From Impatiens glandulifera (taxonomy: Eukaryota; Streptophyta; Magnoliopsida; Ericales; Balsaminaceae), in NCBI RefSeq assembly GCF_907164915.1, contig NC_061868.1, positions 27,585,819 through 27,649,818 on the forward strand: a DNA stretch of 64,000 nt. Direction: 5' to 3'. Positions within the stretch are counted from its first letter, which is position 1. The number at the start of each line of letters is the position of its first letter. The notes below the pieces were generated by a model. The model had not been told where the DNA came from. It saw only the letters and a list, made by a program, of their open reading frames with translations, and searched no databases. The position numbers and the translations under genes were made by a program. Shown piece by piece: positions 11,391 to 62,385 of the stretch.

Positions 11391-11399
11391 TAATAAAAA

Positions 11400-23473: not shown

Positions 23474-23520
23474 ATCTCCCCCTCCAGCCCACGGAGAGAG
23501 GCACACCGATCTTCAAGTCA

Positions 23521-27529: not shown

Positions 27530-27554
27530 TCTTCAATAGAAAGTAAACCTAACC

Positions 27555-27566
27555 GCTCTGATACCA
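27555..27566 (-). other. Primer-binding site (tRNA-Met type)
   Basis: TGGTATCAGAGC on the minus strand, two bases from the LTR end. Confidence 0.9.
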
Positions 27567-27568
27567 CT

Positions 27569-39417: not shown

Positions 39418-39639
39418 ATGTCGATGGGGTCCCTGTTGATGAGGTTGGATGCGGTGGTACGGTCTAATGTTGATACGCCTTGCGGAGTGAGCGCGACTGT
39501 TGATCGCTTGATAGTTATCGATTGCGTCTCGAGGTTAGTTGAATCTCGTGGATGCGTCTCACGAACGTGTCACGAATGCGTCTCGCGACCGCATCTTGCG
39601 AATGCGTCTCACAATCTAAATTGTGTCTCGCAACAATGA
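39418..39639 (+). other. Unidentified MULE cargo frame, copy B
   Basis: 73-codon frame equivalent to 10103-10309 but with added CGTCTCGCGA-like units giving a Cys/Ser/Arg-rich end. Probably not a gene. Confidence 0.3.
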
Positions 39640-41873: not shown

Positions 41874-41875
41874 AT

Positions 41876-41887
41876 TGGTATCAGAGC
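41876..41887 (+). other. Primer-binding site (tRNA-Met type)
   Basis: TGGTATCAGAGC two bases after the LTR. Confidence 0.9.
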
Positions 41888-41912
41888 AGTTAGTTTCAAT
41901 ACTCAAGCAAGC

Positions 41913-42773
41913 ATGTCGTTCGATAGGCCTCCAATGCTAGAAGGTGATGATTTTGTCAACTGGAAGGCACGCATGCACCTGCATTTAATCACCTTGGATG
42001 ATGAAATGGAGTCCATTCTGGCCGAAGGACCGATTATCATTGATAAGGACAGAAAGGAATGGACAGCTGAAGATAGGAGAAGAAATAACCTGGATAACCA
42101 TGCTAGAAACCGGATCTCCAACAGTGTGGACAGAAACACATACTGCAAGATCAGAGACTGCAAAACCGTAAAGGAGACATTGGACACGGTTATTCAGATC
42201 TTTGAGGGAAATGAAAGAACAAAGGAAAACAAGGTGATGGTGGCTACTCAGAAGTTTGAAAGCATCAAGATGAAACCTGGAGAAACAATGAAAGAGTACA
42301 GTGACCGGTTCACTGGTGTGTTAGATGAGCTAGCAACTCTTGGCAAGAGGTATGACAACAAGGAGGTCATCATGAAAGCTTTGAGATCTCTTCCAAGTGC
42401 ATGGGACATAAAGACAATGGTGATGAGGGAATCAAACTGCCTAGGTAAGATGAAGCTACACGATGTATTCGAAGATCTTAAGGCATATGAGTTCGAAATG
42501 AGATCTAGGACTGAAGAAGAAGTCTCGGCCTCAACCTCAACCAGAGCACTGATCACGTCCACAGAACCGGCTACACATGCACTTGCACCTGCCCCTGTAC
42601 CGATTAGAACCGCCGAACAGTTCACCGAGGATGCCATGGCAATGCTTGCAAAGAAGTTTGGAAGATTCATGAAAAGAAGCCAACCAACAAACTACAACTA
42701 TGGTGATAAATCTAATATAAGGTGTTATAACTGCAACTGTTTGGGACACTTCAAGTGGGAATGCAGAAAATAA
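41913..42773 (+). pseudogene. Gag N-terminal half of the deleted copia
   Basis: 286 codons from MSFDRPPMLEGDDFVNWKAR. It contains the gag body (TKENKVMVATQKFESIKM, LRSLPSAWDIKTMVM) and a complete zinc knuckle CYNCNCLGHFKWEC near residues 271-284, then ends two residues later at a TAA contributed by the LTR junction. The normal gag is 600 residues. A protein with matrix/capsid-like body and knuckle could still be made. Confidence 0.9.
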
Positions 42774-43228
42774 GTCTCGATCGGATTGTACTTGTATTCC
42801 TTAGTGAATATCCTTCTCGCGGTTTCGAGAGGAAGGGGTGACGTAGGAGTTTTATCTCCGAACATCCATAAAAACCTGTCTTGTTATTTCTTTTCTGCCG
42901 GCTCTATTCTCTAACCGACCGGTATTAACTTACCTGCACCGTTCTAACTTACTTGACTCTATCCAAACCGAACCACCAGGTTACAAAAACCGACCCATCA
43001 ATTTTCAAACCTATATCATCCAAAACCGGTTCCGCCTATCACACAAGTGTGCTGCTTCAACCTGAAACAAACCTCTTCCGTGCTTGAACCTAGTTCAAGG
43101 GTTTGTGACAGTTTATGTAGTATTGAAACCCCGGTGTTAATCTCTAACAGGATTAATCACCACCCTTTGAGTAAGACCCGCTAAACCGGCCCAACCCCGG
43201 TCCTCCAGTGACGACCTAGATCCTAACA
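42763..43228 (+). repeat. Partial 3' LTR of the deleted copia
   Basis: 466 bp, the same length as 41408-41873 and differing at about seven positions. U3 and R-like parts are absent. Confidence 0.93.
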
Positions 43229-43439
43229 TTATTTTATTTAGAGATATCTTGAAAATGCATAAATAAGATGTAATAAATATATATATATAATTGATATTAA
43301 TTTTATTATTTTTATTTTGCAGTCTAATTGATTTATAAAGAAATAAGCTTAAACCTAATGAAAGGAAGTCCAATCCGAAAGATGTCCAGACCACCAGATG
43401 AAATAACCCTAGTAGCTTAAGCATACTAATAAAAAAAAA

Positions 43440-43960
43440 GATTTCATCTCCACCGACTTCTTTCAGAGAGAGAGAGAGAGAGGTTCTCGCGAAGATAAAG
43501 GGTTCATTTGACCGATTCCCACCGCCGACATCCCTCTCAAGCCACGATCGGTAGATTTGGTATTCTGATAAATTCGACGACTTCCTCAAGCCACGTCTGT
43601 GGTAGATCTGGTCTCCCAATGCCCGCCGAGAAGACCGCATCATCCTCTGATCTAGTCTCCCAGTCGAGAAGACCGCATCGTCCTCTGATCTAGTCTCTCA
43701 ACCGAAAAGATCATGTCGAAACTAACACCAGATGCCTATAAAAGGAGATCGAGCAGACGAAGAGAGGGAGGGGAGAGAAAATAAGAAAAGGAAGAGAAGA
43801 TATGGAGTACGATTCTTCCTGGTATTTAAAGGATTTTCTGAAACATCATTCTTCTTTTCCTGAGTGATTGTGAGTATATTTTGAGCGGTAGTTAGTTGTT
43901 AATCCTGTAGTTGTCGAAGAACAATTGATATCACTGTAAGCGCATTTTATTTTTTGTTTT
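43440..43960 (+). promoter_or_regulatory. Captured promoter / leader-like segment (copy B)
   Basis: Matches 11400-11935: GAGAGA tract, duplicated CCTCTGATCTAGTCTC, TATA-like CCTATAAAAGGAG (43735-43747), GTAAGCGC (43937-43944). No coding exon recognised. Confidence 0.35.
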
Positions 43961-45133
43961 TTTATATATACATATCATTTTCATTGAAAGATCTGGAGCG
44001 AAATTACATGAATGTCTAAATATATATGATGTTGTTTGAGATGGGCAAATTAATCTTTGCTAGATAGATCTGTGAATATTATTTTAATATTTAATAGATT
44101 AGGTTGATTTTTGGTTGGATTTTGGCTACTAGATTCAAAGAAGAACATTTTAGATGTAAAGATGAACAGGGAGGTTGAAAATGAGTATCTGAAACTGAAA
44201 CACTCTATGCCTGCTAATTAGTTTATAATTTATTCTTGACTGTTGTTAATGAGTTTATTATAGCCTAGTTTTGTTTTAAATATGCAGAGAATCAAAAGAC
44301 AAAAAAAATTAACTCAACCCATCTTACCACGATGATTTACTAAACATTTAGGTCTATTATTTTATTTTTTTATTTTTTATATTATTTTTTATTAAATTAT
44401 ATTCATCATGAATAATTAAATAGTAACTAAATAATGAAAAAAATTAATTAAGGAAGTAATATTTAGGAAAGTTAAAATTTATTCTAGAATTAAGGATCAG
44501 TTTGGTCATTATCTAATTTTTTATATTTTATTACTTTTATTTTGTTTTAGGGCTCTAAAAATCCTAAAACTAATTTTATGTATAAAATGTAAATTACTTA
44601 CCTGATTACAAATTAATATTGGATACATGTCTATTAATATATTAGTGTTTGGCATGATTAGAAAAATGTCTATGGTTATGATTTAAGTATTATTTTTTAA
44701 ACTCTACTATATTTATATAATCTTTATGCTTCGTTTGTAATTAATGCTTTGAACGAATTGAAATGATTATTAAGATATATCCTTAGCATTAAGATTTAGT
44801 ACAGTAGAATCCAAAATGTCTAAAATGTAAAGTGTAATAATATTTTTTTTAACGGCCAAAATTGTTGAAGTAGAGACTGTTTTTTAATGGGCATGTGAGA
44901 CATAGCTTCAAAAACCTTTTTCACGTATAACCAAGCACCGAACCTTTAAAGAATTTCTTTTCAAAGCCGTTATTGTTTTACATGCCAAATAATTTATTTT
45001 TCCTAATTTTATAAAAATTTAGGTGGTGACTCTTTAGTCACAAACTGATTTTTAAACAATTCTCCAATTTGACTTAATTTTATTTCAAATTTTTTTAAAG
45101 AGATTTTTATATTTTATATTTATTTCTTAAAAG
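43961..45133. other. MULE interior, no gene seen
   Basis: Matches 11936-13129; AT-rich. Confidence 0.6.
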
Positions 45134-46101
45134 TCAAGAAAATCGTTTTTTGGGGCAAACATTTTTAAACGCGTACAGCTGGTGTTTGCATTTTTTCTCT
45201 GGCCTCGACAGAATTGAGCATGAGTGTTGTTGGTCGAATTTCCGAATCTCAAACATCTCATATAATTTACCTTTCATAGCACGTAGTCTCCACTTGCATG
45301 TCTCATCCAAACATTTCACTTACCAAAGATATTTTCTTGACTTCTCCACTTTGAATTCAAAATGATTAGTCATTGCATATTTATATAGCATCAATTGTAG
45401 TTCTTTTTTATTTTCAAACAAGGCACCAACTTCCAATTCAGTTTCATTAGTTAATGCCATTGCAAATGAGGGGTCTGTCGATGGTGTACCCAATGATGAT
45501 ATTCTTGCACTAGATGGTGTACCCATTGATGATCTTCTTGTACTAGTTGTTGTACCCATTGATGATCTTCTTGCACTAGTTGGTGTACCCATTGATTCTC
45601 TTCTTGCACTAGTTGGTGTAGGTATTGATGTAAAGAGTTATCTTTGGCTTCATTTTGACTTTCAACAAAGACATCCGAGGGTACAACTTCTAGTACAATT
45701 TTTTGAGTAAGTTGTGGTGGTAGTATATTTTCTTGAGTTGGGTATGTAAGTAGTGGTATCTTTTCTTTAGTAAATTGTAACTTCTCTACTACAGAGACAC
45801 ACGATGGTGACACAGTGTGACCCAAAATCAATCGTGATAAATATGTGTTCAAATCCTCATCTTCATCAATAACAACAGGTCTATGATTTGTGATACGTGG
45901 AATATCATACTTGACTTGCAGCACTAAATCATATGTAGATTTCTGCACGTTAAGTCTATCATAGAGTTTGTCAACTAATTCGGTATACCAAGTACTATGG
46001 GGGTAAATCCAATGTTTTGATTGAAGAGGCATCAAAATACAATATTCCATCAGCATCAAATTTCCACTCTCCATTATAGAAAACAAAAACTTCGGCTGCA
46101 A
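45134..46101 (-). pseudogene. MuDR-type transposase N-terminal fragment, copy B
   Basis: A 216-codon frame (45451-46101) starts MQPKFLFSIMESGNLMLMEY and includes HSTWYTELVDKLYDRLN, DEDEDLNTYLSRL and the 11-residue repeats. The MuDR-like DNA-binding domain follows in another frame (45320-45592: VGALFENKKELQLMLYKYAM) and is cut by a TAA where copy A has TAT; it continues at 45134-45319 (CKWRLRAMKGKL). The N-terminal part is better preserved than in copy A. No transposase core. Confidence 0.78.
45478..45625 (-). repeat. 33-bp coding minisatellite (copy B)
   Basis: Same unit as 13445-13605, similarly open in two frames on the minus strand. Confidence 0.8.
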
Positions 46102-46463
46102 TAAAAAATATTATTTAAAAACGGGAAATGGATAATTAATACTGTGAAATGGAAGGACTTCGCGAAACGGGAAGCCCTTCGCGAAACGGGAAATGACATC
46201 GGATAAACCCTAAACAACAGTGATTCAAAGATGAAAAACTGAACAATAATAAACTTGATGTATCATAGGATAAACGTACCAAGTGTAACATGTACGTGGA
46301 ACAAATGATTCAAATATTGCTACACGTTTTCAATGTAACCCAAAACTGATGTGATCAAAAATCCCAAAGCAATAAGTTTGAATGATTTATATATTTGATG
46401 TGGAAGAAGCCATTATTAACAAATTCAATTCATCTCTGAATCTGATTAAAAAAAAGTGATCAT
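46102..46463. other. 5' flank of UGT-B, rearranged
   Basis: MULE-derived sequence up to 46288, then only about 175 bp of original UGT upstream sequence. ACGTGG (46293-46298) and a TATATA (46388-46393) remain; the G-box found at 15938 in copy A is gone. Confidence 0.6.
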
Positions 46464-47905
46464 ATGGAGACGAAGAAGCCATGCTTGAATGTTGTAATGG
46501 TTCCATGGCTAGCCCATGGCCATGTCTCTCCTTACTTAGAGCTTGCCAAAAGACTTGCCGACAGAAACTTCCGAATCTATCTATGTTCAACTCCGATCAA
46601 TCTGAGCTCCATCAAGAAAAGGGTCACACAGAAATACTCTCAATCGATCAAACTCATCGAATTCCATATCCCATCTCAACCCGACCTTCCTCCCCATTTC
46701 CACACAACAAATGGCCTCCCACTTCACCTCAAATCAGTTCTCAAAAGAGCCATGGACAAGGCCAGCCCATCTTTCACCCAAATCATTAAAACCCTGAAAC
46801 CGGACATACTCATTTACGACTTCAACCAAGAATGGGCATCAGTCGCCGCAACAACAATCGGGATACCAGCAGTTCCATTCATCAGCGGTAGCGCTTCCGC
46901 CATGTGTTATATCTTCCATATATTTATGAAACAGGGCGTTGACTTCCCTTATCCCGTCTTGAATCTACGGGGAACTCACTGGAACCGAATGATTCAAGAA
47001 ATGTTGAATACAACTCTGAGTGAGCAAAGTCAAACTGAAAGTGAAAGTAATATTCTTATTTTCATTCTATTTAGTTTAAATTTCAGAACTATAATAATAT
47101 ATTTCCAATAGGCATTCCGCTCTTTAGTAGAACCTGCGACATCATATTCATGAAGACGTTTGGAGAATTGGAAGGGAAATACATAGAGTACGGATCAAAC
47201 CTACTTGGAAAAAAGATAGTCCCCACGGGTCCTCTGGCTCAAGAACACGGAGACTCGGAAGATAACAGCGAGATCATGGAGTGGCTTAACAAGAAAGAGG
47301 CATCTTCAACAGTTTTCGTATCATTTGGAACAGAGTCCTTTTTGTCTAGAGAAGAAATAGAGGAAGTAGCAAAAGGGTTGGAGCTAAGTATGGTGAATTT
47401 CATTTGGGTGCTTAGATTTTCCTTTGAGGAGGAGGAGAAGATTTCAATTGAAGAAGCACTGCCCAATGGCTTTCTTGAGAGGGTGGGAGATAGAGGTCTT
47501 GTAGTTGAGAAATGGGCTCCGCAAGCTAGAATCTTGATGCACCCAAATGTTGGAGGATTTGTAAGCCATTGTGGGTGGGGTTCTATAATGGAGGCCATGA
47601 CATTTGGAATTCCAATTGTGGCTATACCCATGAACTTAGACCAACCAGTGAATGCGAGGTTAGTAGAGGAGATCGGTGTGGGGTTGGAAATAAATAGAGA
47701 TGAGAATGGAGGGCTGAGCGGGGAAGAGATTGCAGAGTTTATAAGGGAAGTCATAGTTGGTGATGAAGATGAGAAGAAGATTAGGGACAATACAAGAGAA
47801 ATGAAACACAAAATCAAAAGTAAAGGAGAAGAAGATATGGATTGTGTTGTGGAAGACTTGTACAAGCTTCACAAGAAGAATATTCATGAAAAAAACATGG
47901 ATTAA
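46464..47905 (+). CDS. UGT-B: intact UGT94-like UDP-glycosyltransferase (exons 46464-47046, 47112-47905)
   Basis: Predicted 458-residue cytosolic family-1 UGT. Exon 1 gives METKKPCLNVVMVPWLAHGH with the catalytic-type His20; the partner Asp is likely in LIYDFNQ (about residue 117). A 65-bp phase-1 intron (47047-47111, GTAATATTC to CCAATAG) joins exon 2. Exon 2 has KTFGELEG, the STVFVSFGTESFLSREE donor-binding stretch and the PSPG box (WAPQ ... HCGWGS ... LDQP, about 47512-47645), then a Lys-rich end. PSPG usually has HCGWNS; Gly/Ser variants occur in UGT94-type enzymes. The sequence style (WLAHGHVSPYLELAKRL, YHTTNGLP-like region) resembles UGT94 enzymes that add a sugar to the sugar of a glycoside; the actual substrate cannot be told. 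No signal peptide or membrane segment. Confidence 0.9.
47047..47111 (+). other. UGT-B intron
   Basis: GT..AG, 65 bp, 69% or more A/T. In frame on both sides (phase 1). The equivalent intron in UGT-A is also 65 bp. Confidence 0.8.
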
Positions 47906-48189
47906 TTCTCGAAGCTTATATATATTTCTCATACTTTTGTAATACTTAAATTGTTTTTAGATTATACAATTTTATGTCATGTTATTATTAGTTAATCCTA
48001 TGTACTTAGTTGTTATAATTTCTTTTAATTAATTTGTTGATTATGTTCAGGGTTGTCTCTACGTAAGCTCAGCAAAACCCTTGGACAAAGAGATCAAGAT
48101 ATTACCCCCATTATAATCTTTCTAATTAAAAGGGACATTTTTTTCACTAAAACTTAGTGTTTTTTTTTTATATATAAATTATTAAACTG
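47906..48189. other. UGT-B 3' flank
   Basis: Matches 17612-17913. Ends where the LINE poly(T) starts. Confidence 0.7.
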
Positions 48190-48388
48190 TTTTTTTTTAA
48201 AACGACTTAGCATCATTTCACTAAAAATTCCCAAAAACGGGAAAAACCTACGAGTTTAAGAGATTATTCTAGACAGGCCTAGAATGATTTTAAAGTTGTA
48301 ACATTCTGAATAAAAGTTAAAAAGCTAAAAACGTAAATGAATTATTTGATTATAATGTTTTCAATTCTAGTGAATTCAAAAAACGGTA
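48190..48388 (-). mobile_element. LINE 3' end (left piece of a split LINE)
   Basis: A poly(T) run (48190-48198) is the poly(A) tail of a minus-strand LINE placed directly after the last base shared with copy A. 48199-48388 would be its 3' untranslated region; it continues at 62386 behind the 14-kb element. The assignment relies on the poly(T), the absence of this segment in copy A and the LINE ORF2 end found at 62443-62660. Confidence 0.6.
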
Positions 48389-49725
48389 TGTTAGATAAAA
48401 TTAGACCGGTTCACAGAACTTAACACATAAACCTTTCATGCAGGAACAAAGAACCGGACCAGTCAAAGTATCCAACCGGTTTGAGAAAACCGGCCGGTCA
48501 GATCACTCAACCTGCTAAGAAGCTCCACCGGTCAAGTTAGTTAACCGACCTGAAACATGACCGCACAAAGAAAGGATCGGCCAAAGCTAAAAACCGGAAA
48601 CACCAGACAGCCGATCAGCTAGAAGGCAAAGGAATAACCGGAAGCTGTCCGGTTAAACCAATTACACCGGAAGCCATCCGGTGAAAAGTCAAATGACCGA
48701 CCAGCACAAGAAGATACTTTGGGTATCTGTTGAGAATGATACCAAAGGAACAGACTGAACATTTCCATATTCATACAAGTCTGAGGAAAGTCTGCAGGCT
48801 GCAGAAGACAGTCCTACAAGATCTTTCCACTTCAGGATAAATCATAAAGGAAATCTTCCAAGTACAGACAACTGTCTAACCAACAGTTACCACATTGAGT
48901 AAAAGACAAACATAGCAGGTTTGTCTTACACACCGGAAGAACAGACTGCAAAGTCTGTAGAGTTGACCGCCAGGTCTGAACAGATGACCGCCAGGTCTGA
49001 ATCACTGAACCTCTGCTCAGCCAATCAGATTCAAGAAAGTGAAATATGACCGTTGGCATATTTCACCTATAAAAGGAGCAGCTGAAGAAGAGTAAACGTG
49101 GGACAAACGGGATACGTGAGACAAGAGAGATTTTAAGGGAACACAGTGAACAAGTAATCTACAAGTGATAAGAGTGCGTTCTCTCTCTAGAAAAGCTTAA
49201 GTGCTAAGTTGAAGTGTGTATTTACAATTTTAGTGTAAATTGTACGGGTGTTATCGAGCAGGAAATAAGTCTCGATCGGATTGTATTTGTATTCCTTAGT
49301 GAATATGCTTTCTCGCGGTTTCGAGAGGAAGGGGTGACGTAGGAGTTTTATCTCCGAACATCCATAAAAACCTGTCGTGTTATTTACTTTCTGCTGGTTT
49401 TACATTCTAACCGACCCGTTCTAACCGACCTACACCATTTTGACCGACTCTATACTATCTAAACCGAATCACCAAGTTACAAAAACCGACCCATCAATTT
49501 CCAAACCTGCCTTATACAAAAACCGGTTCTGCCTATCCTGTAAGTGTGCTGCTTCAACCTGAAACAAACCTCTTCCGCGCTTGAACCTGGTTCAAGGGTT
49601 TGTGACAGTTTGTGTAGTATTGAAACCCCGATGTTAATCTCTAACAGGATTAATCACCACCCTTTGAGTGAGACGCCCTAAACCGGCCCAACCCCGGTCC
49701 TCCAGCGGCGACCTAGATCCTAACA
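48389..49725 (+). repeat. 5' LTR of the 14-kb element
   Basis: TGTTAGATAAAATT to GATCCTAACA. The first ~300 bp contain many CCGG-centred palindromes (ACCGGT, CCGGCCGG). CCAAT (49020-49024), inverted repeat 49039-49066 and TATAAAA 49068-49074 mark the promoter. Confidence 0.95.
49039..49074 (+). promoter_or_regulatory. LTR core promoter: palindrome plus TATA box
   Basis: GTGAAATATG, spacer ACCGTTGG, CATATTTCAC (10-bp perfect arms), then one base and TATAAAA. The spacer complement CCAACGGT contains the MYB/MSA-type core AACGG. Repeated in the 3' LTR (61696-61731). Confidence 0.65.
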
Positions 49726-49727
49726 AT

Positions 49728-49739
49728 TGGTATCAGAGC
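49728..49739 (+). other. Primer-binding site (tRNA-Met type)
   Basis: TGGTATCAGAGC, two bases after the LTR end at 49725. Confidence 0.93.
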
Positions 49740-49764
49740 AGTTAGTTTCAATACTCAAGCAAGC

Positions 49765-51567
49765 ATGTCTTTCGATAGGCCCCCTATGCTAGAAGGTGAT
49801 GACTTTGCCAACTGGAAGGCACGCATGCACCTACACTTAATCACCTTGGATGATGAGATGGATCTCATCCTGGCCGAAGGACCGATAATCATTGATAAGG
49901 ACAGAAAGGAATGGACAGCTGAAGATAGGAGAAGAAATAACCTGGATAACCATGCTAGAAACCGGATCTCCAACAGTGTGGACAGAAACACGTACTGCAA
50001 GATCAGAGACTGCAAAACCGCAAAGGAAACATGGGACACGGTTATTCAGATTTACGAGGGAAATGAAAGAACCAAGGAAAACAAGGTAATGGTAGCTACT
50101 CAGAAGTTTGAAAGCATCAAGATGAAACCGGGAGAAACAATGAGGGAATACAGTGACCGGTTCACTGGTGTGTTAGATGAGCTAGCAACTCTTGGCAAGA
50201 GATATGACAACAAGGAGGTCATCATGAAAGCTTTAAGATCTCTTCCAAGTGCGTGGGACATAAAAACAATGGTGATGAGGGAATCAAACTACCTAAGTAA
50301 GATGAAGCTACACGATGTATTTGAAGATCTTAAGGCATATGAGTTCGAAATGAGATCTAGGACTGAAGAAGAAGTATCGGCCTCAACCTCGACCAGAGCA
50401 CTGATCACATCCACCGAACCGGTCGCACCTGCACCTGCACCGATCAGAACCGCCGAACAGTTCACCGAGGATGCCATGGCAATGCTTGCACAGAAGTTTG
50501 GGAGGTTTATGAAAAGAAGCCAACCAACAAACTACAACTATGGTGATAAATCCAATGTAAGGTGTTATAACTGCAACTGTTTGGGACATTTCAAGTGGGA
50601 ATGTAGAAAACCGAGGAGGGATGACCGGAAACCGGATTACCAAAATAACCGAAATAACTATCAACAAACCGGTGAAGGAAGTGAGGTTCAAAAAGCACTG
50701 ATAGCCGACGATGGAGGAAGTTTATGGGCTCACAGTGACAGTGATGATGAACTCACATGCCTCATGGCAAATGAGGAACAGGTATTTGACTCTTCTTGTG
50801 AAGAATTTACTAAAGATGAGTTATATAATGCATTGAATGATATGCTAGAAGAGTATAAGAACCTGTTAGCCATGTTACCTAAGCAACTCAACTTTAGAAC
50901 CGACCCCATAGTACCCATTCCGACAGAACCGGAAATACCCGTTCTAACCAAACCAGAGATCACAAAACCTGATGAAATCCCTACCTTAGAAACCAAGTTA
51001 GAACCTGAACCACCACTCAAGACCGAACAGCCTAGTGAACCAGCTAGAGAATTAACCGAGGAGGAAAATGCCCGACTCCAGTATAAGATGGCCGCATATA
51101 AAAGATCTAGTGATATGGTGAACAAGATGTGTAGTTACAAAAGACATCCTACTTGCATGTTCGGTTTAGGATACATAAACGATAGATCCAAAGACCATAA
51201 ACCCGTAGACAGAGTAAGGTTCTCAAAGAACGACCTTCCTCTTATAAGTTTCATTAGAAGTTCCCTAACCGCCGAAGAGGAACTGACTGCCTATTATACG
51301 GAAGAAAAACTAACCTATGTAGGTCCAACCGCCTCTGAGAAATGGCTTGATCCTGAGAAAAGAAAAGCCGACTTGCTCAAAAATAGGAGAGCCAATCATC
51401 AACCGCGTAGGACAAATTACAAATCACCCTCAGTTAAGGCCTTCGCAGGAAAACCGAAGTATCCAAAACCTAGTGCCAAAAGGACGGTTAAGACCTTAGC
51501 AAAGAAAGCTGTCTGGTTTGTCAAAGTTTGGATGCCCAAGGGACTAACCGCATGTGGACCCAAGTAA
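49765..51567 (+). CDS. Gag of the 14-kb element (600 aa)
   Basis: Start MSFDRPPMLEGDD, shared with 41913. Residues about 1-230 form the copia gag body; the zinc knuckle CYNCNCLGHFKWEC lies near 267-280 with all four ligands; then an acidic region, a Pro/Glu-rich stretch (PIPTEPEIPVLTKPEI) and a basic C-terminus ending VWMPKGLTACGPK. 600 residues is long, as in Sireviruses. It packages element RNA. It ends at TAA 51565-51567; in the related remnant at 94-531 the frame ran on into pol, so this stop or the nearby 2-base difference may be secondary. Confidence 0.92.
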   Translation: MSFDRPPMLEGDDFANWKARMHLHLITLDDEMDLILAEGPIIIDKDRKEWTAEDRRRNNLDNHARNRISNSVDRNTYCKIRDCKTAKETWDTVIQIYEGNERTKENKVMVATQKFESIKMKPGETMREYSDRFTGVLDELATLGKRYDNKEVIMKALRSLPSAWDIKTMVMRESNYLSKMKLHDVFEDLKAYEFEMRSRTEEEVSASTSTRALITSTEPVAPAPAPIRTAEQFTEDAMAMLAQKFGRFMKRSQPTNYNYGDKSNVRCYNCNCLGHFKWECRKPRRDDRKPDYQNNRNNYQQTGEGSEVQKALIADDGGSLWAHSDSDDELTCLMANEEQVFDSSCEEFTKDELYNALNDMLEEYKNLLAMLPKQLNFRTDPIVPIPTEPEIPVLTKPEITKPDEIPTLETKLEPEPPLKTEQPSEPARELTEEENARLQYKMAAYKRSSDMVNKMCSYKRHPTCMFGLGYINDRSKDHKPVDRVRFSKNDLPLISFIRSSLTAEEELTAYYTEEKLTYVGPTASEKWLDPEKRKADLLKNRRANHQPRRTNYKSPSVKAFAGKPKYPKPSAKRTVKTLAKKAVWFVKVWMPKGLTACGPK

Positions 51568-51589
51568 ATGTGGGTACCAAATAGTTGTA

Positions 51590-54500
51590 AATATGTACAT
51601 TTTGCAGGATATAAATAGACAGCTAGGAAATTTTGAATGGTACTTGGATAGTGGTTGCTCCAGGTATATGACCGGGAACAACAACCTGCTAACCGACATC
51701 AGAATAGAAACCGGTGCACTAATCACTTTCGGTGACAACTCAAAAGGTAGAACTGTGGGCAAGGGTAAGATTGTCCATGGTAACCTAACAATTGATAATG
51801 TACTCTTAGTTGAAAACCTACGTTTTAACTTGCTAAGTATTAGTCAAATGTGTGATGCTGGATACACGGTAGAATTTCTTAAACATGCATGCTTAGTTAA
51901 GAACTCTCAAGGCACCATACTACTAACCGGAAATAGGCTAGGAAATATCTACAAGGTAGACTGGAAAACTAAGATAGAATATCCTGTATGCATGATAGCT
52001 AAGACTGATCAAACCTGGTTGTGGCATAAGAGACTAAACCATCTGAACATGAAAACCTTAAACTACATTCGCGGTAAAAAGTTAGTTGAAGGTATTCCTG
52101 ACATAGTATTTAACAAGGATAAGGTTTGTTCAGCATGTCAAATGGGTAAACAAACTAGGTCAACCTTTAAGAGTAAAGGAAACATTCAATCTAACCGATG
52201 CTTAGATCTCCTTCACATGGACTTATTTGGACCGATTCAGGTCATTAGCCTAGGTGGTATGCTTTACACCATGGTAGTTATTGATGATTACTCTAGATTT
52301 ACATGGGTAATATTTCTACCATCCAAACGTGAAACCGCAACAAATTTGATCACATTACTTAAACGTTTGCAAAATGAAAAATCAACTCGCATTAATAGCA
52401 TTAGAAGTGATAGAGGTACCGAATTTACCAACATCACTTTAACCGCATTTCTTGATGAATCCGGTATTAGACACGAGTTGTCTAGTGCTAGGACTCCTCA
52501 ACAAAATGGCCTGGCCGAGAGAAGAAACCGAACTCTCAAGGAAGCCGCACGGTCCATGATAGCCGATTCGGGCATTGCTCAGAAATTTTGGGCTGAGGCT
52601 ATCAACACTGCATGTTATACACAAAACCGGTCTCTAATTAACAAGTTTCACAACAAAACACCGTATGAGGTATACTTTAATAGGGTTCCCAACCTTAAAT
52701 ACCTTAAGATTTTCGGGTGTAAATGTTATATTCACATAAATGGTAAAACCTATCTTTCTGCTTTTGATGCAAAAACCGATACTGGGATCATGTTAGGTTA
52801 CTCAGTAGTGAGTAAGGCATATAGAGTATATAACAATAGAACATTAACCATGGAGGAATCACTTCATGTTGTTTTCGATGAATCGGTTGAGAGTAATACT
52901 GCATCATGCTTTGATCTACACAACAGATTGGAAAATAACAATATCCATTCTGATAGTGAAGATGAGATTCCGGTTTTCAGGCGGTTTATCCATGACCAAA
53001 TGGGTAATAATGAAACCCAGCCGGATCAAGCTGTTCCACAACAGGAAGTTGACACTTCGGTTCAAACCGAGGAAATCGGTCGGTCTGATAATCCTGTTCA
53101 GCCTACCGATATGTCTAGCCTTGATCAAGCAAACGGTAATTTGGTAGACATCCCTGAACCGAACTTCAAAAGGAACACTAAACATCCTCCTGAGCAAATT
53201 ATAGGTGACCTTTCAGAACCTGTTCGAACTAGGCGTCAAATTCTGGAGGAATATTTCAATTCCGCCTTTATATTTCCAGATTGAGCCGAAAAGAATAGAT
53301 GAAGCATTGTCAGATCCGGATTGGATCTTGGGAATGCAAGAAGAGCTAAACCAGTTCGAGAGCAACAAAGTCTAGTACCTAGTCCCTAGACCGAAAGATC
53401 AACCGGTCATAGGAACAAGATGGGTATTTAGAAATAAACTCAATGAAGACGGTTTGGTCACAAGGAACAAAGCCAGATTAGTGGCACAAGGTTACAAACA
53501 GGAAGAAGGCATTGATTTTGAAGAATCATTTGCCCCTGTAGCTAGGATTGAAGCTATTAGGATTTTTCTAGCATTTGCTGCATTCAAAAACTTTAAGGTT
53601 TTCCAAATGGATGTTAAAAGTGCATTTTTGAATGGTGACCTACGTGAAGAGGTGTATGTTGAACAACCACCCGGTTTCAAAAGTGCTGAATTTCCAAACC
53701 ATGTATACCGGTTAAACAAAGCTTTATACGGTCTAAAGCAAGCACCTAGAGCCTGGTATGACACACTAACCGCATTTTTGTTAAAACATGACTTCACCAT
53801 CGGTTCGGTGGACAAAACACTTTTTAAATTTGAGAAGAAGGAACATATCCTACTTGTTCAAATCTATGTAGATGATATCATATTCGGTTCAACCGATCCT
53901 AAGTTGTGTGATAAATTCTCAACCTTGATGACTAACAAGTTTGAAATGAGTATGATGGGAGAATTAAGTTTCTTCCTAGGTCTTCAGGTTAAACAACTTA
54001 AAGAAGGAACGTTCATAAGCCAACCCAAGTACACCAAGGAGCTTCTAAAGAAATTTGGGATGGACACATGTTCCTCAGCGGCTACTCCAATGAGCTCATC
54101 GGTTAAGTTGGACAAGGATGATGAGGGTCAATCGGTAGACCAGATCGCTTACCGGGGCATCATCAGTTCTCTCCTATATCTGACAGCAAGTAGACCGGAT
54201 ATTCTATTTGCAGTCGGTGTGTGTGGAAGATTTCAAGCCAATCCAAAACAATCCCACTACACAGCCGCAAAGAGGATCTTGAAATACCTAAAGGGAACAC
54301 CTGATGTCGGCCTGTGGTATCCAAAGGATTCATCCTTTAACCTAACGAGCTATTCAGATGCAGACTACGCAGGTTGCAAGATTGATAGAAAAAGCACCAG
54401 CGGAACATGCCAATTCCTAGGTGACCGGCTTGTTTCATGGCATAGCAAGAAACAAACATCAGTGGCCACATCCACCGCAGAAGCTGAATACCTGGCGGCC

Positions 54501-54830
54501 GGAAGCTGTTGTTCACAACTTCTCTGGATCCAACAATAACTAAAGGATTTCGGTGTCACAGCCGAAGAGTCTCCGATCTTTTGTGATAACACCAATGCCA
54601 TAGCAATCACCTACAATCCGGTTCTACACTCCAGAACCAAGCACATTGACATAAGGCACCACTTCATTTGGGAACATGTCATGCTGAAGCATATCCGGCT
54701 GGAATACGTACCGACAGATCAACAAGTAGTCGATATCTTCACCAAGCCTCTACAGGAAGCTAAGTTCTCTCAATTCAGACTTACACTCGGTTTAACCGAT
54801 ATTAGTCAGATCATCCCTAAGGATGTTTAA
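51590..54830 (+). pseudogene. Pol of the 14-kb element (protease, integrase, RT, RNase H), broken
   Basis: Frame 1 (to 53284): protease WYLDSGCSRYMTG (51640), integrase zinc finger LWHKRLNH ... CSACQ (52019-52140), core Asp (LHMDLFGP), Asp (SDRGTEF), Glu (AERRNRT). A 1-base shift near 53278 moves into the frame of EPKRIDEAL. TAG at 53373-53375 stands where Trp is conserved. Reverse transcriptase follows: [29 protein letters not shown] (53868). RNase [21 protein letters not shown], then TAA at 54537-54539, and the C-terminus to 54830 (DIFTKPLQEAKFSQFR). Catalytic residues are present, but at least three lesions prevent a full product. Confidence 0.92.
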
Positions 54831-55344
54831 AAGGAAAATCGATTCGGACAGACAAAACCGGTAGTTCCTCCTAAACTGTTGGATTTCAAATTTCCCAGGG
54901 TATCTATGGAAGAACCGCCTGGTTCATCAGTCAGAGTAAACCGACCGGTTATTTAGTGCATGCACCAAATAACCGCATCGGGATGAACAACTGATAACTG
55001 ACCGGTTCGGAAATAGGTTATCTTAGATTATTTGAACTTCAATCAAAAGTGGAATACTTATCTGTGTTTAAACTTATCTGTTCTGAAACATTTCCTTTTC
55101 AAAGTAAAATGGTCGCACCTAAAAAGACGTGAAGATCTGATATCTTTCATGGTCCAGGTCTATGACCAACACCCGTAGGCTGTAGACATGCTTATTTCAT
55201 GCAAAACTTTTTATCCTATGGATAATAGACATTATCACCTGTGATACCTGGATAATAAGATCCCCTCTCCATTAGTATATAAGATGAATAAAACCTTAAA
55301 CAAAACAATCACAAGTCATAACTCACTCTCTCACTAAGACAAAA
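54831..55344 (+). promoter_or_regulatory. Pol-to-accessory spacer with TATA-like box
   Basis: 514 bp, no ORF. TATATAA at 55276-55282 is followed by an A/C-rich leader and ACTCACTCTCTCACTAAG just before the accessory ORF1 start. Layout equals a plant core promoter. Confidence 0.45.
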
Positions 55345-56106
55345 ATGTCTCAGTTTCCAAACATCTTCCAAGTGGACTTCAAATCAGCAAAGAGTACTGA
55401 ACACTATGATGTGTTCAAAATGATCAAATCACTTGAAGACACAGGTCTTCAATACTTCCTGGATGACAAGCATGTCATCTATCCAGAATCTGTTCTAGAA
55501 TTCTTGTACAATGCAAGGGTTTTCAGAGGCACACCGCATTTTGACACCCATATCCAGTCAAAGGTGGGCGGTATAGTATTCGACTTCACGGAGAATGACT
55601 TTGGGAGATGCTTTGGGCTGCCAAAGCAAGGACTAACCGATCTCAACGTTCCGGCCGACTTAAAGGCCGAGATCTCCCTAACCTTTGCCCGGTCTAACCA
55701 ACCTGTCGATGACCATGGCACAAAGTCACTATTGAGGGCTGAATATCAGCTCCTCAATGACGTGATAGGTCGAAGCATCTTAGGGAGAGATGTGACGAAT
55801 ACCTACTGCTCCGCATCCTTCAACATGATGGCTGCTATAACCACCGGGACACCGGTTAATTGGTCAAGGGTACTGTTCGACGTCCTAATCTGGATGATTG
55901 GCGTTCGAACAGTCGGCCTCGTTCCCCAACTGAGTTGTCTATTTAATGAGTTTGGCGTACCGACCTGTCCGGGCGAAGGTCTGAATCAAGCTCAAGTGCT
56001 AACCAAGGAAGTAACCGACTCCTTCTATGAGCGGTTTGAGAAGGATTGGAAGAGGAGGAACCGTCGCAACAACCCCAACGGTGCAGTCACCTCCAGCGGT
56101 TATTAG
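55345..56106 (+). CDS. Accessory ORF1 (253 aa)
   Basis: Intact frame. N-terminal FQVDFKS (residues 8-14), DTGLQYFLDD, YPESVLEFLYNA, a strand-like block GGIVFDFTENDFGRCFGLP, then LLRAEYQLLNDVIGRSIL, MMAAITTGTPVNWSRVLFD and an end with CPGEG. The tail is basic (KDWKRRNRRNN). This layout resembles the plant domain called putative plant transposon protein (PF20167-like); inference from motif order. No signal peptide or transmembrane helix, so the env-like label used for Sirevirus third ORFs is not supported here. Function unknown. Confidence 0.8.
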   Translation: MSQFPNIFQVDFKSAKSTEHYDVFKMIKSLEDTGLQYFLDDKHVIYPESVLEFLYNARVFRGTPHFDTHIQSKVGGIVFDFTENDFGRCFGLPKQGLTDLNVPADLKAEISLTFARSNQPVDDHGTKSLLRAEYQLLNDVIGRSILGRDVTNTYCSASFNMMAAITTGTPVNWSRVLFDVLIWMIGVRTVGLVPQLSCLFNEFGVPTCPGEGLNQAQVLTKEVTDSFYERFEKDWKRRNRRNNPNGAVTSSGY

Positions 56107-56561
56107 GTCACTCCCTCCTACACCCGGTCATTTTGCTGCACGCACCGGGTGTATCTTTGTTCAACATCCTTATGATCATTTCAGTTTTATCTATGTCTTC
56201 TTCGGTTTTAGACTAAGTTATCTTCGGTTCTTATCGGTTACTTTTCAGTGTGTTGTTGCATGAGTCATTAATGAAAAGTAATATTTAATTAATGCAGTAA
56301 CCCCTAACCACCTGAATAATTACTACCCAACTAACTTGGTTACTTCTCAACTAAAACCTACCTCGAGCTCTGCAATCAGCCTCTTCCCAATGACCTTGGA
56401 AACATAAAGATTCTCTTCTCCAATAAAACAAAACTGACATTCAATGCTAATATTTTCCCTCCAAAACCGAATCTATATAAAGGGCTATCTTCTAATCAAC
56501 TAAACACATCCTAAACATAAAACTCTCTTGAACTCTCTCTCTAAATAGCAAAGTTAGCATC
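56107..56561 (+). promoter_or_regulatory. Spacer between accessory ORF1 and ORF2 with TATA box
   Basis: 455 bp. TATATAAA at 56474-56481, then a leader containing CTCTCTTGAACTCTCTCTC (56523-56541), before ATG 56562. No ORF. Confidence 0.5.
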
Positions 56562-57263
56562 ATGCCGAGTCGAACCTTAGGAAACTTCTTGAGCATCGAT
56601 TTCGAATCTTGTATGGAACATTGGGACGGAGAAACAAAGGAGATGATGTTTGAATCTCTCATTGACACCGGCCTTCGAACCTTTCTCGAAGAATCCGGTC
56701 CCATTCTTATTGAGGATGTTAAGACCTTCTTCAGAAGTGCTTGCATCAGAGGTAACTATATCGTCTCCACGGTGAGAGACCATACTTTCTGGCTTGATGA
56801 AGCCGAATTTGCACAGATGTTCAACTTACCCACAGAAGGATTTTCCGACTTCCCAACCCGGGTGGGAAGTGCAGCAACCGATCACGCACTTTTCTTCTCT
56901 GGAATCGACATTCCGGTGGAAAACCATGGGTTAAAAACCCGCCTTGCTCACCACATCCAACTCCTTCTTGAGATTGTAACCCGATCTATCATATGTCAAT
57001 CTCCGAACCAGCGCTACTCTAAGAAAACATACGACATGATGACCTATATTGTTAGCAACACGGCTATCAATTGGTCAACGATCATCTTTCAGAACCTAAA
57101 AACTATGGTGCTAACCAAGAAAGGTCTCGGTTATGCTCCTCATATCAGCCGGCTTATTCTCAAATACCGCCCAGAATTTGGACTAGGCACACCGGCATCT
57201 CCTTCGAACATTCTCGACTTAGATGGAGTGGAAGAAAAGCTTTCAAGGGTAGTTATCACATAA
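56562..57263 (+). CDS. Accessory ORF2 (233 aa)
   Basis: Intact frame, homologous along its length to ORF1 and to the first 200 residues of ORF3: LSIDFES, DTGLRTFLEE, DVKTFFRSACIRG, FWLDEAEFAQMFNLPTEG, HIQLLLEIVTRSII, MMTYIVSNTAINWSTIIF, then a Gly/Pro end. Divergence between ORF1 and ORF2 is high (shared motifs only), so the triplication is old relative to the LTRs. No catalytic motif or membrane segment recognised; function unknown. Confidence 0.8.
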   Translation: MPSRTLGNFLSIDFESCMEHWDGETKEMMFESLIDTGLRTFLEESGPILIEDVKTFFRSACIRGNYIVSTVRDHTFWLDEAEFAQMFNLPTEGFSDFPTRVGSAATDHALFFSGIDIPVENHGLKTRLAHHIQLLLEIVTRSIICQSPNQRYSKKTYDMMTYIVSNTAINWSTIIFQNLKTMVLTKKGLGYAPHISRLILKYRPEFGLGTPASPSNILDLDGVEEKLSRVVIT

Positions 57264-57871
57264 GTTATCTTTATTTCTTATGTATTTCCATTTCCAAACC
57301 GATCCATATATCGGTTTATATCCTATACCTTTTCATTCAATGAAATTTTATTTCAGTCTAAATAACCGGGTCAACATAATAATTAGAACATTCATCTAAG
57401 TAACCGGTTAACAATGTCAAGTAACCTCGCTTTCTATCCGGTCAATATCAATAAATCACTTTGCCTTCATTAAAAATCCGGTGAAAGTCTTAAACCGCAT
57501 CCTCGCGGATTAATAGATCACATCTCTTCATAAACGGCTTTGAAAAGGGACAGATTCATTCAAAACTGAAATCAAAAGTTGGAGGGAAATTTCCCGTCCG
57601 ATACCTCCCACTCAAACATCCCGCCTCTGGTTTGGCGCCCATAGTTTGCCGTCCTTTTGGCTTCCCGCCCATAGTTTGCCGCCTCTTCGGCTTGGAGGGA
57701 AAACTCCCGCCAAATGTTAATGGGACGGTTGGGTTTCCGAACCGCACCTATAAAAAGGGCCCTTGGCCACTTCATTTTCCTCTTACGCGAAACAACTTTC
57801 TCTCTCTATGTTATTAAAATCTCTCACACCGGTTATTCTCTTGCTCTCTCAAACTCTCTCATTCAACAACT
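57264..57871 (+). promoter_or_regulatory. Upstream region of accessory ORF3 with TATA box and E2F-like motifs
   Basis: 608 bp, GC-rich near 57580-57720. TTTGGCGCC (57631-57639), TTCCCGCCC (57662-57670) and CCCGCCAAA (57706-57714) match the E2F core TTTSSCGC/GCGSSAAA type. CCCATAGTTTGCCG is repeated directly (57638, 57667). TATAAAAA at 57749-57756 and a CT-rich leader follow. Confidence 0.45.
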
Positions 57872-58105
57872 ATGGGTCGTGCTTCAGCCTTGTTCAAACA
57901 CATCATTCAGGTGGACTTTGAGGAAATCCGCCAAAACGGTTCGGTTGCGGCAAAGGAAGTTATTAACCGGATTTCCGAAGCCGCACTTGAGCATTTTCTG
58001 GGCGGTCCATTTGTTCTCACACCGTTATTCTCTTGCTCTCTCAACTCTCTCATTCAACAACTATGGGTCGTGCTTCAGCCTTGTTCTCTCATCAACAACT
58101 ATGGG
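57826..58105 (+). repeat. ~190-bp tandem duplication over the ORF3 start
   Basis: The block from the CT-rich leader through the start codon to GGCGGTCCATTTGTTCT occurs first at 57826-58016 and again from about 58017. A further ~40-bp piece (ACTATGGGTCGTGCTTCAGC) is repeated, giving three start codons (57872, 58062, 58101). Confidence 0.9.
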
Positions 58106-60707
58106 TCGTGCTTCAGCCTTGTTCAAACACATCATTCAGGTGGACTTTGAGAAAATCCGCTAAAACGGTTCGGTTGCGGCAAAGGAAGTTATTAACCGGA
58201 TTTCCGAAGCCGGACATGAGCATTTTCTGGGCGGTCCATTTGTTCTGTACAGAGAAGCGGTCGGAGAGTTCTTCAGAACCGCATCTCTCTTTGGCGACAA
58301 AATAACCGCAACGGTTGGCGGAAAACAATTCGAGTTAACCGAAGAATCGGTTGCGGAGATCCTACGTCTTCCAACAGAAGGTCAAAACGCTTTAATGGAG
58401 CTAGACCCAACAACATTCGAGGCGGTCTGCCAGATTCTCTCTGGAGACGGGAAACCGGTGAAAGTATCCGGTAAGAAATCGACACTAGGACCGGAATACA
58501 TACCGCTTTGTGACATCTTCACAAAGTCGGTTCAAGCAAGAGGTGGAAATTACGACAACATCACCAAGGCCAAGATCGAAATGCTTATCGGTTTGCTGGA
58601 AGGTACGAAAGTCAACTGGGCGAAGGAAATTTTCCACAACCTGAAAGATATGGTGAAACCGGATTTAGCCCGGTCATGGGGATACGCCATCCCCCTTGGT
58701 AAAATAATGTCCCACCTTAACATCAACACCGGCCCCGGTGTTCTTCTCTCATCAAGCAGGATAATAAGATCCAAACATTTCCGGGAGAGGAAGCAGCCGG
58801 CCCCCGGCTCTACAAGTGGCCGAAAGAGGAAATCTACTACCAAGGCACCGACTCCGGTAAAAGATAAGTCCGGAAGCAAGAAGGGTAAGGAACCGATAGC
58901 TTTCACGGAACCGCCCTCGCAAACAAGAGATGAGGAAGAATCGGCTTCCACGTCTGACCGAACCGGCTCACAGAAAACCGATGAAAATCCTTCCGATAGA
59001 GAAGGACCGAATAACGAAGAACATACGGGTACAAGTCCTGACAATACCGGTGCGGGCGCAAGCCTTGAGAACACAGATGCCGGTGCAGACGGCCGTGAGG
59101 AGGAAGAGACTCCCTTTGACAGCGACCAGAAGAAGGCCGAAATTATAGCGCGCCGGATCCTGGAGGAAATTGAACTGCGAGTTCAAGCGGTTGCCGCATT
59201 ATACCGGGAATGGCACGAGTACCGATGCGACAAATTTTACAAACACATTTTACCGGGCCTAACCGATGAACAATGCTTCAGAAGGATGAAGGAGATGGAG
59301 GAAAATGTCATAAGCCTCACAAACGCCGAAAATCCTAACAAAGCCATGGACCGACACGCAATCGTGAAACCGCGTGCTCGGCTACAAAAGCTAACCGTAC
59401 GTATCCGAAAGCTTACAGAAAGGTACGTTGCGGGAACACCGAAGGCTAACTTACAGCTCTTGGTGTTAGAAAAGCTTGAGATAGCGAAAGGAGAATTCGC
59501 TGAAGAAATTGATCGGCTTGAAGCGGTGTACAGACAACGAGAAAAAACGCACTCTCCAGCTCCTGAGACCAGTAACGGTCAGAACCGAAGTGAAACGCCT
59601 CCTCTAGCGGATCCGGCCATAAACGAAACCGACGAAAGGATAGAAGCTCCTTTCACCGAGCAACTTGAAACTGATCAACCTGGGGTTTCCGAACCGGGCG
59701 TCACAGAAGAAAGGGTCAAGTCCCTTATTCAAGAGTTTGCCGACTCAACGGTTCAACCATTACAGGAGAAAATCAAGAAAGCCATGCGCCAAACACTCTT
59801 GTTCGCCGAAAAGACGAGGGATGATCTCGTAAAGGCAGAGGACCGGATCACAGTCATCGAAAACGAATACCGGGACGACGTAGTTCTGCACAACGAGCAT
59901 TATCAACAAACCGAGGACTTAGAAGATAAGACCTCAAGGATGGTAGATGACTTGGATCGTTTGGACCTAGGGCAACGATTCAAAGAGGTCGATGACGACC
60001 TAGGGCGGTCAAGAAATGAAGTCGGTTCGACACTTGACAGGGTCACAGATCTGGAAAAGAAGAATGCAAGCCTTGAAGACCGCAACGACAAGCTTGAAGC
60101 CGATCTTAAGGCGCTAACCAAACAGGTGGCTGAGCTGTTAAATGCCAAGATCAATGCCGATACAACGGTTGAGGAGGCAAACGCCCGAGCGGCTAAGGAA
60201 GTCCAAGATGCGCTGGACGAAGAAACGCGGAGAGCAAAGGAGACATTGCGACTATCTGAAGAGGAAATAGCCGAGCGCGAACGAAACCTAGCGGCTCAAA
60301 ATCCGGGACTTGCGAAGACCGTGGCAGCTCAAGCGGCCAAAGATGCAGAGTAGTTAAACGCACAAAAATAAGGGCTCGAAGAATATGCCAGGGATCACAA
60401 GAAGAAAAAGGCAGCTTCCTCCTCTTCGGCTCCGGTAAAACGAAAAAGAAAGGTTTCTGCAAAAAAAATGTTGGAGAGGATCACAAAGACAAACATCGAT
60501 ACTCCACCAAACTCACAGCAAACCGAGGATGAAGACGAAGAGCATCTTGAGCAGCGGTCTACAAGACAGCGAATCTCCAATGCGGTTCCAATCAGCACGG
60601 TTGGTCAACCGCAAGCTGAAGGTTCATCCTCAAGACCAGATCAACCGGATAAAGAAAAACCGACCAAGGATATGATGGACGGTTTCACGTTTTCCGAATC
60701 AGAATAG
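58101..60707 (+). pseudogene. Accessory ORF3 (869-codon span), three in-frame stops
   Basis: One frame throughout, starting at the third duplicated ATG. Stops: TAA 58161-58163 (the upstream duplicate reads CAA here), TAG 60351-60353, TAA 60369-60371. Open part 58164-60350. Domains: the accessory domain (to about residue 205: EAVGEFFRTASLFG, GKQFELTEESVAEILRLPTEG, GTKVNWAKEIFHNLKDMV), a Ser/Thr/Glu-rich linker (about 220-340), an Arg/Glu/Leu region, and a coiled coil (about 540-750, VTDLEKKNASLEDRNDKLEA). The end has KKKKAASSSSAPVKRKRK, a nuclear-localisation-like basic cluster, and an acidic tail. No membrane helix. Function unknown. Confidence 0.8.
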
Positions 60708-61045
60708 GGGATTTCCTTTCTAAATCTATGTTTCCTTCGGTTTCTACATATAATATTTTCCCTTTTATTTCGGTTACCTTTATATATATATATATATAAA
60801 GATATTTTTGAAACCGGCCTATACTTGCATTATTACATGGTTTTGATAATTTTAAATAAAATAATCAAAAAGGGAGAAATTGATAAGATAAAAGATAATA
60901 ATTTTCCAAAATTTTTCTCAAAATTTTTTTTCGAAAAATTCTCCCATGTTAATTTCAAAAATCCGGTCAAATAAAGAACCGACCTACGTTTGCATTATTA
61001 CATGGTTTTGATAATTTTAAATAAAATAATCAAAAAGGGAGAAAT
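60708..61045 (+). repeat. Two 65-bp purine-tract blocks before the 3' LTR
   Basis: Blocks 60818-60882 and 60983-61047 share GCATTATTACATGGTTTTGA and AATAATCAAAAAGGGAGAAA. The second directly precedes the LTR and is the likely plus-strand primer; the first is followed by TGATAAGATA, not a real LTR start. A (TA)n run lies at 60780-60798. Confidence 0.85.
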
Positions 61046-62380
61046 TGTTAGATAAAATTAGACAGGTTCACAGAACTTAACACATAAACCTTTCATGCAG
61101 GAACAAAGAACCGGACCAGTCAAAGTATCCAACCGGTTTGAGAAAACCGGCCGGTCAGATCACTCAACCTACTAAGAAGCTCCACCGGTCAAGTTAGTTA
61201 ACCGACCTGAAACATGACCGCACAAAGAAAGCATCGGCCAAAGCTAAAAACCGGAAACACCAGACAACCGATCAACTAGAAGGCAAATGAATAACCGGAA
61301 GCTGTCCGGTTAAACCAATTACACCGGAAGCCATCCGGTGAAAAGTCAAATGACCGACCAGCACAAGAAGATACTTTGGGTATCTGTTGAGAATGATACC
61401 AAAGGAACAGACTGAACATTTCCATATTCATACAAGTCTGAGGAAAGTCTGCAGGCTGCAGAAGACAGTCCTACAAGATCTTTCCACTTCAGGATAAATC
61501 AGAAAAGAAATCTTCCAAGTACAGACAACTGTCTAACCAACAGTTACCACATTGAGTAAAAGACAAACCTAGCAGGTTTGTCTTACACACCGGAAGAACA
61601 GACTGCAAAGTCTGTAGAGTTGACCGCCAGGTCTGAACAGATGACCGCCAGGTCTGAATCACTGAACCTCTGCTCAGCCAATCAGATTCAAGAAAGTGAA
61701 ATATGACCGTTGGCATATTTCACCTATAAAAGGAGCAGCTAAAGAAGAGTAAACGTGGGACAAACGGGATACGTGAGACAAGAGAGATTTTAAGGGAACA
61801 CAGTGAACAAGTAATCTACAAGTGATAAGAGGGCGTTCTCTCTCTAGAAAAGCTTAAGTGCTAAGTTGAAGTGTGTATTTATAATTTCGGTGTAAATTGT
61901 ACGGGTGTTATCGAGCAGGAAATAAGTCTCGATCGGATTGTATTTGTATTCCTTAGTGAATATTCTTCTCGCGGTTTCGAGAGGAAGGGGTGACGTAGGA
62001 GTTTTATCTCCGAACATCCATAAAAACCTGTCGTGTTATTTACTTTCTGCTGGTTTTACATTCTAACCGACCCGTTCTAACCGACCTACACCATTTTGAC
62101 CGACTCTATACTATCTAAACCGAATCACCAAGTTACAAAAACCGACCCATCAATTTCCAAACCTGCCTTATACAAAAACCGGTTCTGCCTATCCTGTAAG
62201 TGTGCTGCTTCAACCTGAAACAAACCTCTTCCGCGCTTGAACCTAGTTCAAGGGTTTGTGACAGTTTGTGTAGTATTGAAACCCCGATGTTAATCTCTAA
62301 CAGGATTAATCACCATCTTTTGAGTGAGACGCGCTAACCGGCCCAACCCCGGTCCTCCAGCGGCGACCTAGATCCTAACA
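61046..62380 (+). repeat. 3' LTR of the 14-kb element
   Basis: 1335 bp, about 20 differences from 48389-49725; TATAAAA at 61725-61731. Ends TAACA followed by CGGTA. Confidence 0.95.
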
Positions 62381-62385
62381 CGGTA

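Follow-up and report, generated by a model that had tools for sequence, protein, structure and literature searches.

How can a retrotransposon express three related genes placed behind its pol gene, and what might their products do? The question is raised by a 64,000-nucleotide stretch of Impatiens glandulifera (Himalayan balsam) DNA, contig NC_061868.1, positions 27,585,819 to 27,649,818, here called the window. It holds a 14-kb element (48389–62380) that most likely belongs to a many-copied Copia family of the SIRE lineage, a placement drawn from structure and published descriptions. Three accessory genes, A, B and C, lie between pol and the 3′ long terminal repeat (LTR):

55276..55283, plus strand: TATA box of gene A, TATATAAG
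55345..56106, plus strand: accessory gene A, 253 amino acids (aa), PF20167-type, open reading frame (ORF) intact
56474..56481, plus strand: TATA box of gene B, TATATAAA
56562..57263, plus strand: accessory gene B, 233 aa, PF20167-type, ORF intact
57632..57713, plus strand: E2F-type boxes upstream of C (57632, 57662, 57676; reverse 57706), consensus from PMC5464667
57749..57756, plus strand: TATA box of gene C, TATAAAAA
57863..58246, plus strand: 155-nt tandem duplication in the start of C (57863–58017 and 58092–58246, 97% identity)
57872..60707, plus strand: accessory gene C, PF20167-type domain and long acidic tail, broken here

We favour, with moderate confidence in the whole taken jointly, a Copia family with a fixed A-B-C cassette, separate TATA promoters and VANC21-like DNA-binding products.

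The three genes are homologous. The A and B proteins align at 31% identity over 220 positions (E 8e-27), and the main C ORF is matched by A at 5e-9 and by B at 1e-8, which excludes a lack of similarity among the three. Identity between paralogues within the window is 27–28% in the alignment used for the tree. The initial annotation had proposed three diverged copies of one domain, and this is right by homology, although the paralogues are ancient and distinct from one another and C has a long additional tail. The motif order it listed recurs in all three, with LPKQG for LPTEG in A and IDF for VDF in B. Its three ORFs after pol stand as three homologous coding units, with A and B open and C, in the window, broken. 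The frame from the ATG at 57872 runs for 92 aa only, the start being disrupted by the tandem duplication, and in-frame stops lie within the second duplicate and again from 60351 onward. Spacers of 514, 455 and 608 bp precede A, B and C, in agreement with the 450–610 bp proposed; they had also been described as free of ORFs, which fails for C, where a 149-aa alternative-frame ORF (57714–58163) spans the promoter and start of the gene and reaches into its spacer. All 11 aligned A/B/C-type members match PF20167 (Transposase_32) at E ≤ 1, the best at 4.5e-8. Their scores are 11.9–33.6 bits, and we call them PF20167-type rather than members because the best score falls below the curated Pfam cut-off of 45 bits.

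Such an arrangement could be peculiar to one copy, the outcome of secondary insertions or decayed frames in a single element. The broken C in the window would fit this, as would the state of the other long copies, 19 of 20 of which lack a fully open frame for one or more of A, B and C. The family as a whole refutes it. First-look candidates in the genome numbered 18,838 for A and 18,717 for B; 150 were scored in each case and every one of them matched, so that the counts are lower bounds. In 20 linker regions besides that of the window, A is followed by B without exception, and the N-terminal part and domain of C are found in 19; the remaining region, L042, retains only the tail of C. Removal of 17 duplicate loci left 41 distinct copies, window included. 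A precedes B in all 41, and where the sequence extends 900 bp past B, C starts after B in 24 of 25. The genes have been under purifying selection: the median pairwise ratio of nonsynonymous to synonymous substitution rates, far below 1, is 0.112 for A (40 copies, 26 stop-free), 0.178 for B (38 copies, 18 stop-free) and 0.316 for the C domain (23 copies, 15 stop-free; window excluded). In a set of 21 long copies picked for their resemblance to A, the A frame is open in 19, that of B in 7 and that of C for at least 700 aa in 4; one copy has all three open.

A diverged subfamily, found through the protein P0067, has the same order. Three of its four regions contain A, B and C, and L059 contains B and C without A; in two of the three complete regions C could be reached for its first 33 residues only. 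Identity in this subfamily is 75–84% for A (by piece), 63–68% for B and 62–70% for C. In the tree, A, B and C form one clade each, spanning both subfamilies, and the triplication is therefore older than the subfamily split. The three-gene arrangement, rather than a single gene, is thus general for the family. Linker blocks of L059 and L060 align to the window at 71–75% identity. Compared with window positions 53736–57874, L060 shows identity of 0.82–0.92 at the pol end and about 0.7 from near 55.1–55.2 kb onward, a pattern that would fit an exchange of pol and the accessory cassette between the subfamilies.

The TATA-like boxes reported in front of the three genes are exact. TATAWAW (TATA[AT]A[AT]) begins at 55276, 56474 and 57749, and otherwise the plus strand of the linker has it only in an AT microsatellite (60781–60793). 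Under a first-order model of each spacer, the chance of finding the motif within −130 to −60 is 0.048 for A, 0.047 for B and 0.042 for C. The strict A box (TATATAA) is present in 35 of 41 copies, with TATTTAA in three of the six misses; the strict B box is present in 41 of 41 and the strict C box in 24 of 24 (TATAAAA in 18, TATATAA in 6). Across copies the boxes lie 67–71 bp (A), 77–102 bp (B) and 120–126 bp (C) upstream of the ATG. The diverged subfamily has TATTTAAG before A in all three copies with that gene, TATATAAG before B in 4/4, and TATAAAG or TATAAAAG before C in 4/4. Taken singly, the heptamers are moderately more conserved than their surroundings, at percentiles 0.885 (A), 0.945 (B) and 0.901 (C), or 0.893, 0.893 and 0.966 among AT-rich heptamers; jointly, random heptamer triples attain the observed conservation at a frequency of 0.0047.

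The predicted leaders are free of ATG in 33 of 33 copies for A, 38 of 38 for B and 21 of 23 for C, where ATG density in the spacers gives expected fractions of 0.46, 0.22 and 0.60; the window's C leader is one of the two with an extra ATG. The leaders had also been described as CT-rich, and this applies to C (C+T 0.67 vs 0.54 in its spacer) and not to A (0.49 vs 0.51) or B (0.58 vs 0.58). Plant core promoters normally carry TATA at −50 to −20, with Y patches, as described in PMC1832190. Retention of the boxes at nearly fixed distances, together with leaders lacking upstream ATG, supports internal promoters, and separate transcription of A, B and C is the best-supported reading of these sequence features. 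The suggestion of independently transcribed genes in the initial annotation is partly supported. Each gene would then have its own TATA promoter, and the element would probably make three shorter mRNAs besides the LTR-driven genomic RNA, all of them terminating in the 3′ LTR and each translated from its first gene. Comparison of the three upstream regions with each other and with the LTR at the DNA level revealed no convincing similarity, so the promoters seem not to be recent copies of one another or of the LTR. Derivation of the C promoter from the LTR had been raised since both read CTATAAAA, and the same comparison gave it no support.

The region upstream of C has a further feature. TTSSCGSS, counted on both strands, occurs there in 24 of 24 copies at a mean of 5.5 per 330 bp, against 0.38 in shuffles, and its mean is 0 in 37 A and 41 B upstream regions. 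The diverged copies have 5, 5, 1 and 4 occurrences upstream of C. The stricter TTTSSCGC is present in 21/24 C, 1/37 A and 0/41 B regions. According to PMC5464667, E2F sites include TTTSSCGSS and TCCCGCC. Through these clustered E2F-type boxes the C promoter may follow the cell cycle.

For the function of the products, the lead is structural. The best predicted-fold match of the AlphaFold models of both A and B is VANC21 (PDB 9lnj), a chain that stands well above the next row for either model and spans nearly the whole domain. VANC21 is described as the anti-silencing protein of VANDAL21 (PMC5735166). Foldseek returned nothing at E ≤ 0.001 against PDB (A and B) or BFVD (A). A PDB sequence search with the accessory proteins gave insignificant matches only, VANC21 not among them; no sequence similarity to VANC21 was detected, and a Pfam scan of the accessory proteins found no DUF1985 match at E ≤ 1. 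The element's DNA is itself dense in a short motif: AACCG/CGGTT recurs over the whole of 48389–62380, with a strand bias of 93 to 53, and AACCG is enriched relative to synonymous shuffles in gag, pol, A and C. ACCGG/CCGGT is dense in the LTR, where 15 of 19 sites lie upstream of the LTR TATA, and no one palindromic unit was defined. On the models, A and B share a predicted fold with VANC21, and the products most likely bind DNA as accessory proteins of the element, acting on its own sequence, perhaps at the AACCG motif; a VANC-like DNA-binding accessory function is the leading hypothesis.

VANDAL is a Mutator-like DNA transposon. As described in PMC5735166, VANC21 too is the product of a plant transposon, and a single short motif is dense in the DNA of that transposon, as AACCG is here. 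It differs in that VANC carries DUF1985/DUF287, and the VANDAL motif, unlike AACCG, is YAGTATTAY and lies in non-coding tandem repeats (PMC5735166).

Two observations count against the joint reading. An AG, a potential splice acceptor, lies at most 12 nt before the ATG in 37/39 copies of A, 37/38 of B and 18/23 of C, and the structural match to VANC21 falls short of the tool's safe level. The first bears on expression. A, B and C might be expressed from the LTR promoter through alternative splicing of the genomic RNA, with the TATA boxes as leftovers or chance. Since an AG so often precedes the ATG, this was weighted up and the favoured explanation down; we still regard it as rather unlikely. 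Splicing is a published mode for plant envelope-like (env-like) genes (PMC2829016, PMC7264820), predicted or reported for those of BAGY2 and Athila. The AG is part of CTAAG in 36 copies of A and 18 of C, and pyrimidine runs lie upstream. CTAAG never precedes B, however, and no acceptor sequence is common to all three genes (donors were not sought). CAG, the usual plant splice acceptor, stands before the ATG in 0 (A), 0 (B) and 2 (C) copies, and in the window's C no AG lies between the CT tract and the ATG. Splicing would also leave three TATA boxes at nearly fixed places unexplained.

The shortfall of the structural match bears on function. The promoters could be real and the products of unrelated fold, serving particle assembly, RNA binding or RNA-level silencing suppression, and the strand bias of AACCG is also compatible with a role in RNA. 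That one and the same chain leads so clearly for both models, over nearly the entire domain, argues against this, and we put its likelihood level with that of splicing. A third possibility, that the accessory genes encode env-like membrane proteins in the retroviral sense, draws on their location and orientation, which are those of the SIRE eORF-3′F (PMC6317226), and on the hydropathy of A. The maximum 19-residue mean on a simple scale is 1.79 in A (residues 176–194), 0.99 in B and 0.72 in C. The usual cut for a transmembrane stretch is 1.6, and because A surpasses it this explanation was weighted up. It remains improbable: in the AlphaFold model the A stretch lies within a conserved helix of a confidently predicted domain, B and C stay below the cut, and the top predicted fold match is a DNA-binding protein.

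The favoured reading, of separate promoters and VANC-like products, can be set against known systems once the rest of the element is laid out:

48384..48388: target-site duplication, left, CGGTA, identical to the five bases at 62381–62385
48389..49725, plus strand: 5′ LTR (TGTTAG...CTAACA), from the LTR-pair alignment, with its own TATA at 49068
49728..49739, plus strand: primer binding site TGGTATCAGAGC, read off the LTR-region sequence, which we take to be of tRNA-Met type
49765..51567, plus strand: gag (Retrotran_gag_2, PF14223; Pfam 6.7e-24)
51554..54830, plus strand: pol (Pfam Pol_BBD 1.4e-15; rve, integrase, 9.6e-16; RVT_2, reverse transcriptase, 1.1e-66), split here into ORFs 51554–53284 and 53454–54539, RNase H end placed by eye
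60870..60877, plus strand: internal copy of the polypurine tract, AAGGGAGA
61035..61042, plus strand: terminal polypurine tract, AAGGGAGA
61046..62380, plus strand: 3′ LTR, from the LTR-pair alignment
62381..62385: target-site duplication, right, CGGTA

The Pfam domain order, integrase before reverse transcriptase, is that of Copia. Judged by its LTRs (98.43% identity, 19 mismatches, 2 gaps), the window copy is young, but it is not intact: pol falls into separate ORFs, and C is disrupted.

The element shares with SIRE and Sirevirus elements gag-pol in Copia order, an LTR of about 1.3 kb and a long linker with more than one polypurine tract copy (PMC6317226, PMC2829016, PMC3414828). It also shares sense genes between pol and the 3′ LTR, placed and oriented as eORF-3′F, an extra ORF described in 74% of SIRE elements and falling into 19 groups with little mutual similarity (PMC6317226). 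A CGG/CCG-rich repeated motif and a TATA near the middle of the LTR (here position 681 of 1337) are further common points; the motif described for Sireviruses is a palindromic CGG-CCG unit repeated in the LTR upstream of the TATA and upstream of ENV. Set against those descriptions, the present family has three paralogues where a single ENV-like gene is described, each preceded by a conserved TATA, and its repeated motif fills coding sequence as well. Its tract octamer is AAGGGAGA, in two copies (60870, 61035), where Sireviruses are described with several copies of AGGGGGAG near the 3′ LTR.

Athila and Grande are Ty3/gypsy elements. Athila is likewise described with an additional ORF (aORF) encoding a PF20167-type domain (Transposase_32), said to be related to A. 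thaliana Athila ORF1 (PF03078); there it is one sense ORF, compared with three here in a Copia element (PMC11728184). Grande gene23 is, like A, B and C, a plant LTR-retrotransposon accessory gene with its own promoter, but it is single and antisense (PMC7264820). Modes of env-like expression given in PMC2829016 are splicing and, in SIRE1, stop-codon suppression. According to the same source, an internal promoter was proposed by Peterson-Burch and Voytas (2002), who found none, and its authors state that they too were unable to identify one conclusively. The expression mode and role of the Sirevirus 3′ gene were called open in papers of 2010 and 2012 (PMC2829016, PMC3414828). The internal-promoter idea is thus old, and the boxes described here are candidates in one family. 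The open-access literature searched yielded no description of Copia elements bearing multiple PF20167 ORFs.

Relatives outside the family are few. All 67 relatives of gene C among the protein database matches listed (7,996 candidates) come from I. glandulifera. A protein search with A alone gave 191 candidates and none at E ≤ 0.001; with the A/B/C alignment four matches reached E ≤ 0.01, of which three belong to I. glandulifera and the fourth to Dorcoceras hygrometricum. The Dorcoceras protein groups with C in the tree at weak support (0.672). Viral contigs searched with A yielded one pattern match and no confirmed relative.

The window also contains a tandem segmental duplication (3515–17905 and 32697–48172) with blocks 87–97% identical and ORFs that look glycosyltransferase-like by eye; the end of one of its copies is the element's left neighbour. 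A truncated copy of the same family (40572–43228: LTR, gag start and the last 466 bp of the LTR) lies in one arm only and was probably inserted after the duplication, because it is absent from the other arm. At 1–3400 is a remnant of another SIRE-like element, with a gag end, polypurine-tract-like repeats (by eye) and most of pol missing, which holds a decayed PF20167-type piece at 1032–1301. A different Copia element occupies 22953–28089 on the minus strand, with 521-bp terminal repeats 99% identical and a 1008-aa pol ORF.

A more far-reaching proposal, which we advance only tentatively, is that the family carries a separately transcribed three-gene anti-silencing system, in which VANC-like proteins would read the AACCG carpet and lift methylation, with C tied to the cell cycle through its E2F boxes. 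If this is true, the CGG/CCG repeats of Sireviruses would be the target, and their 3′ "ENV-like" genes the factor, of one system. Should the link to VANC be borne out, LTR retrotransposons would join VANDAL transposons (PMC5735166) as carriers of sequence-specific anti-silencing. The family supplies three candidate promoters at exact positions, many testable genomic copies and a structural lead to function.

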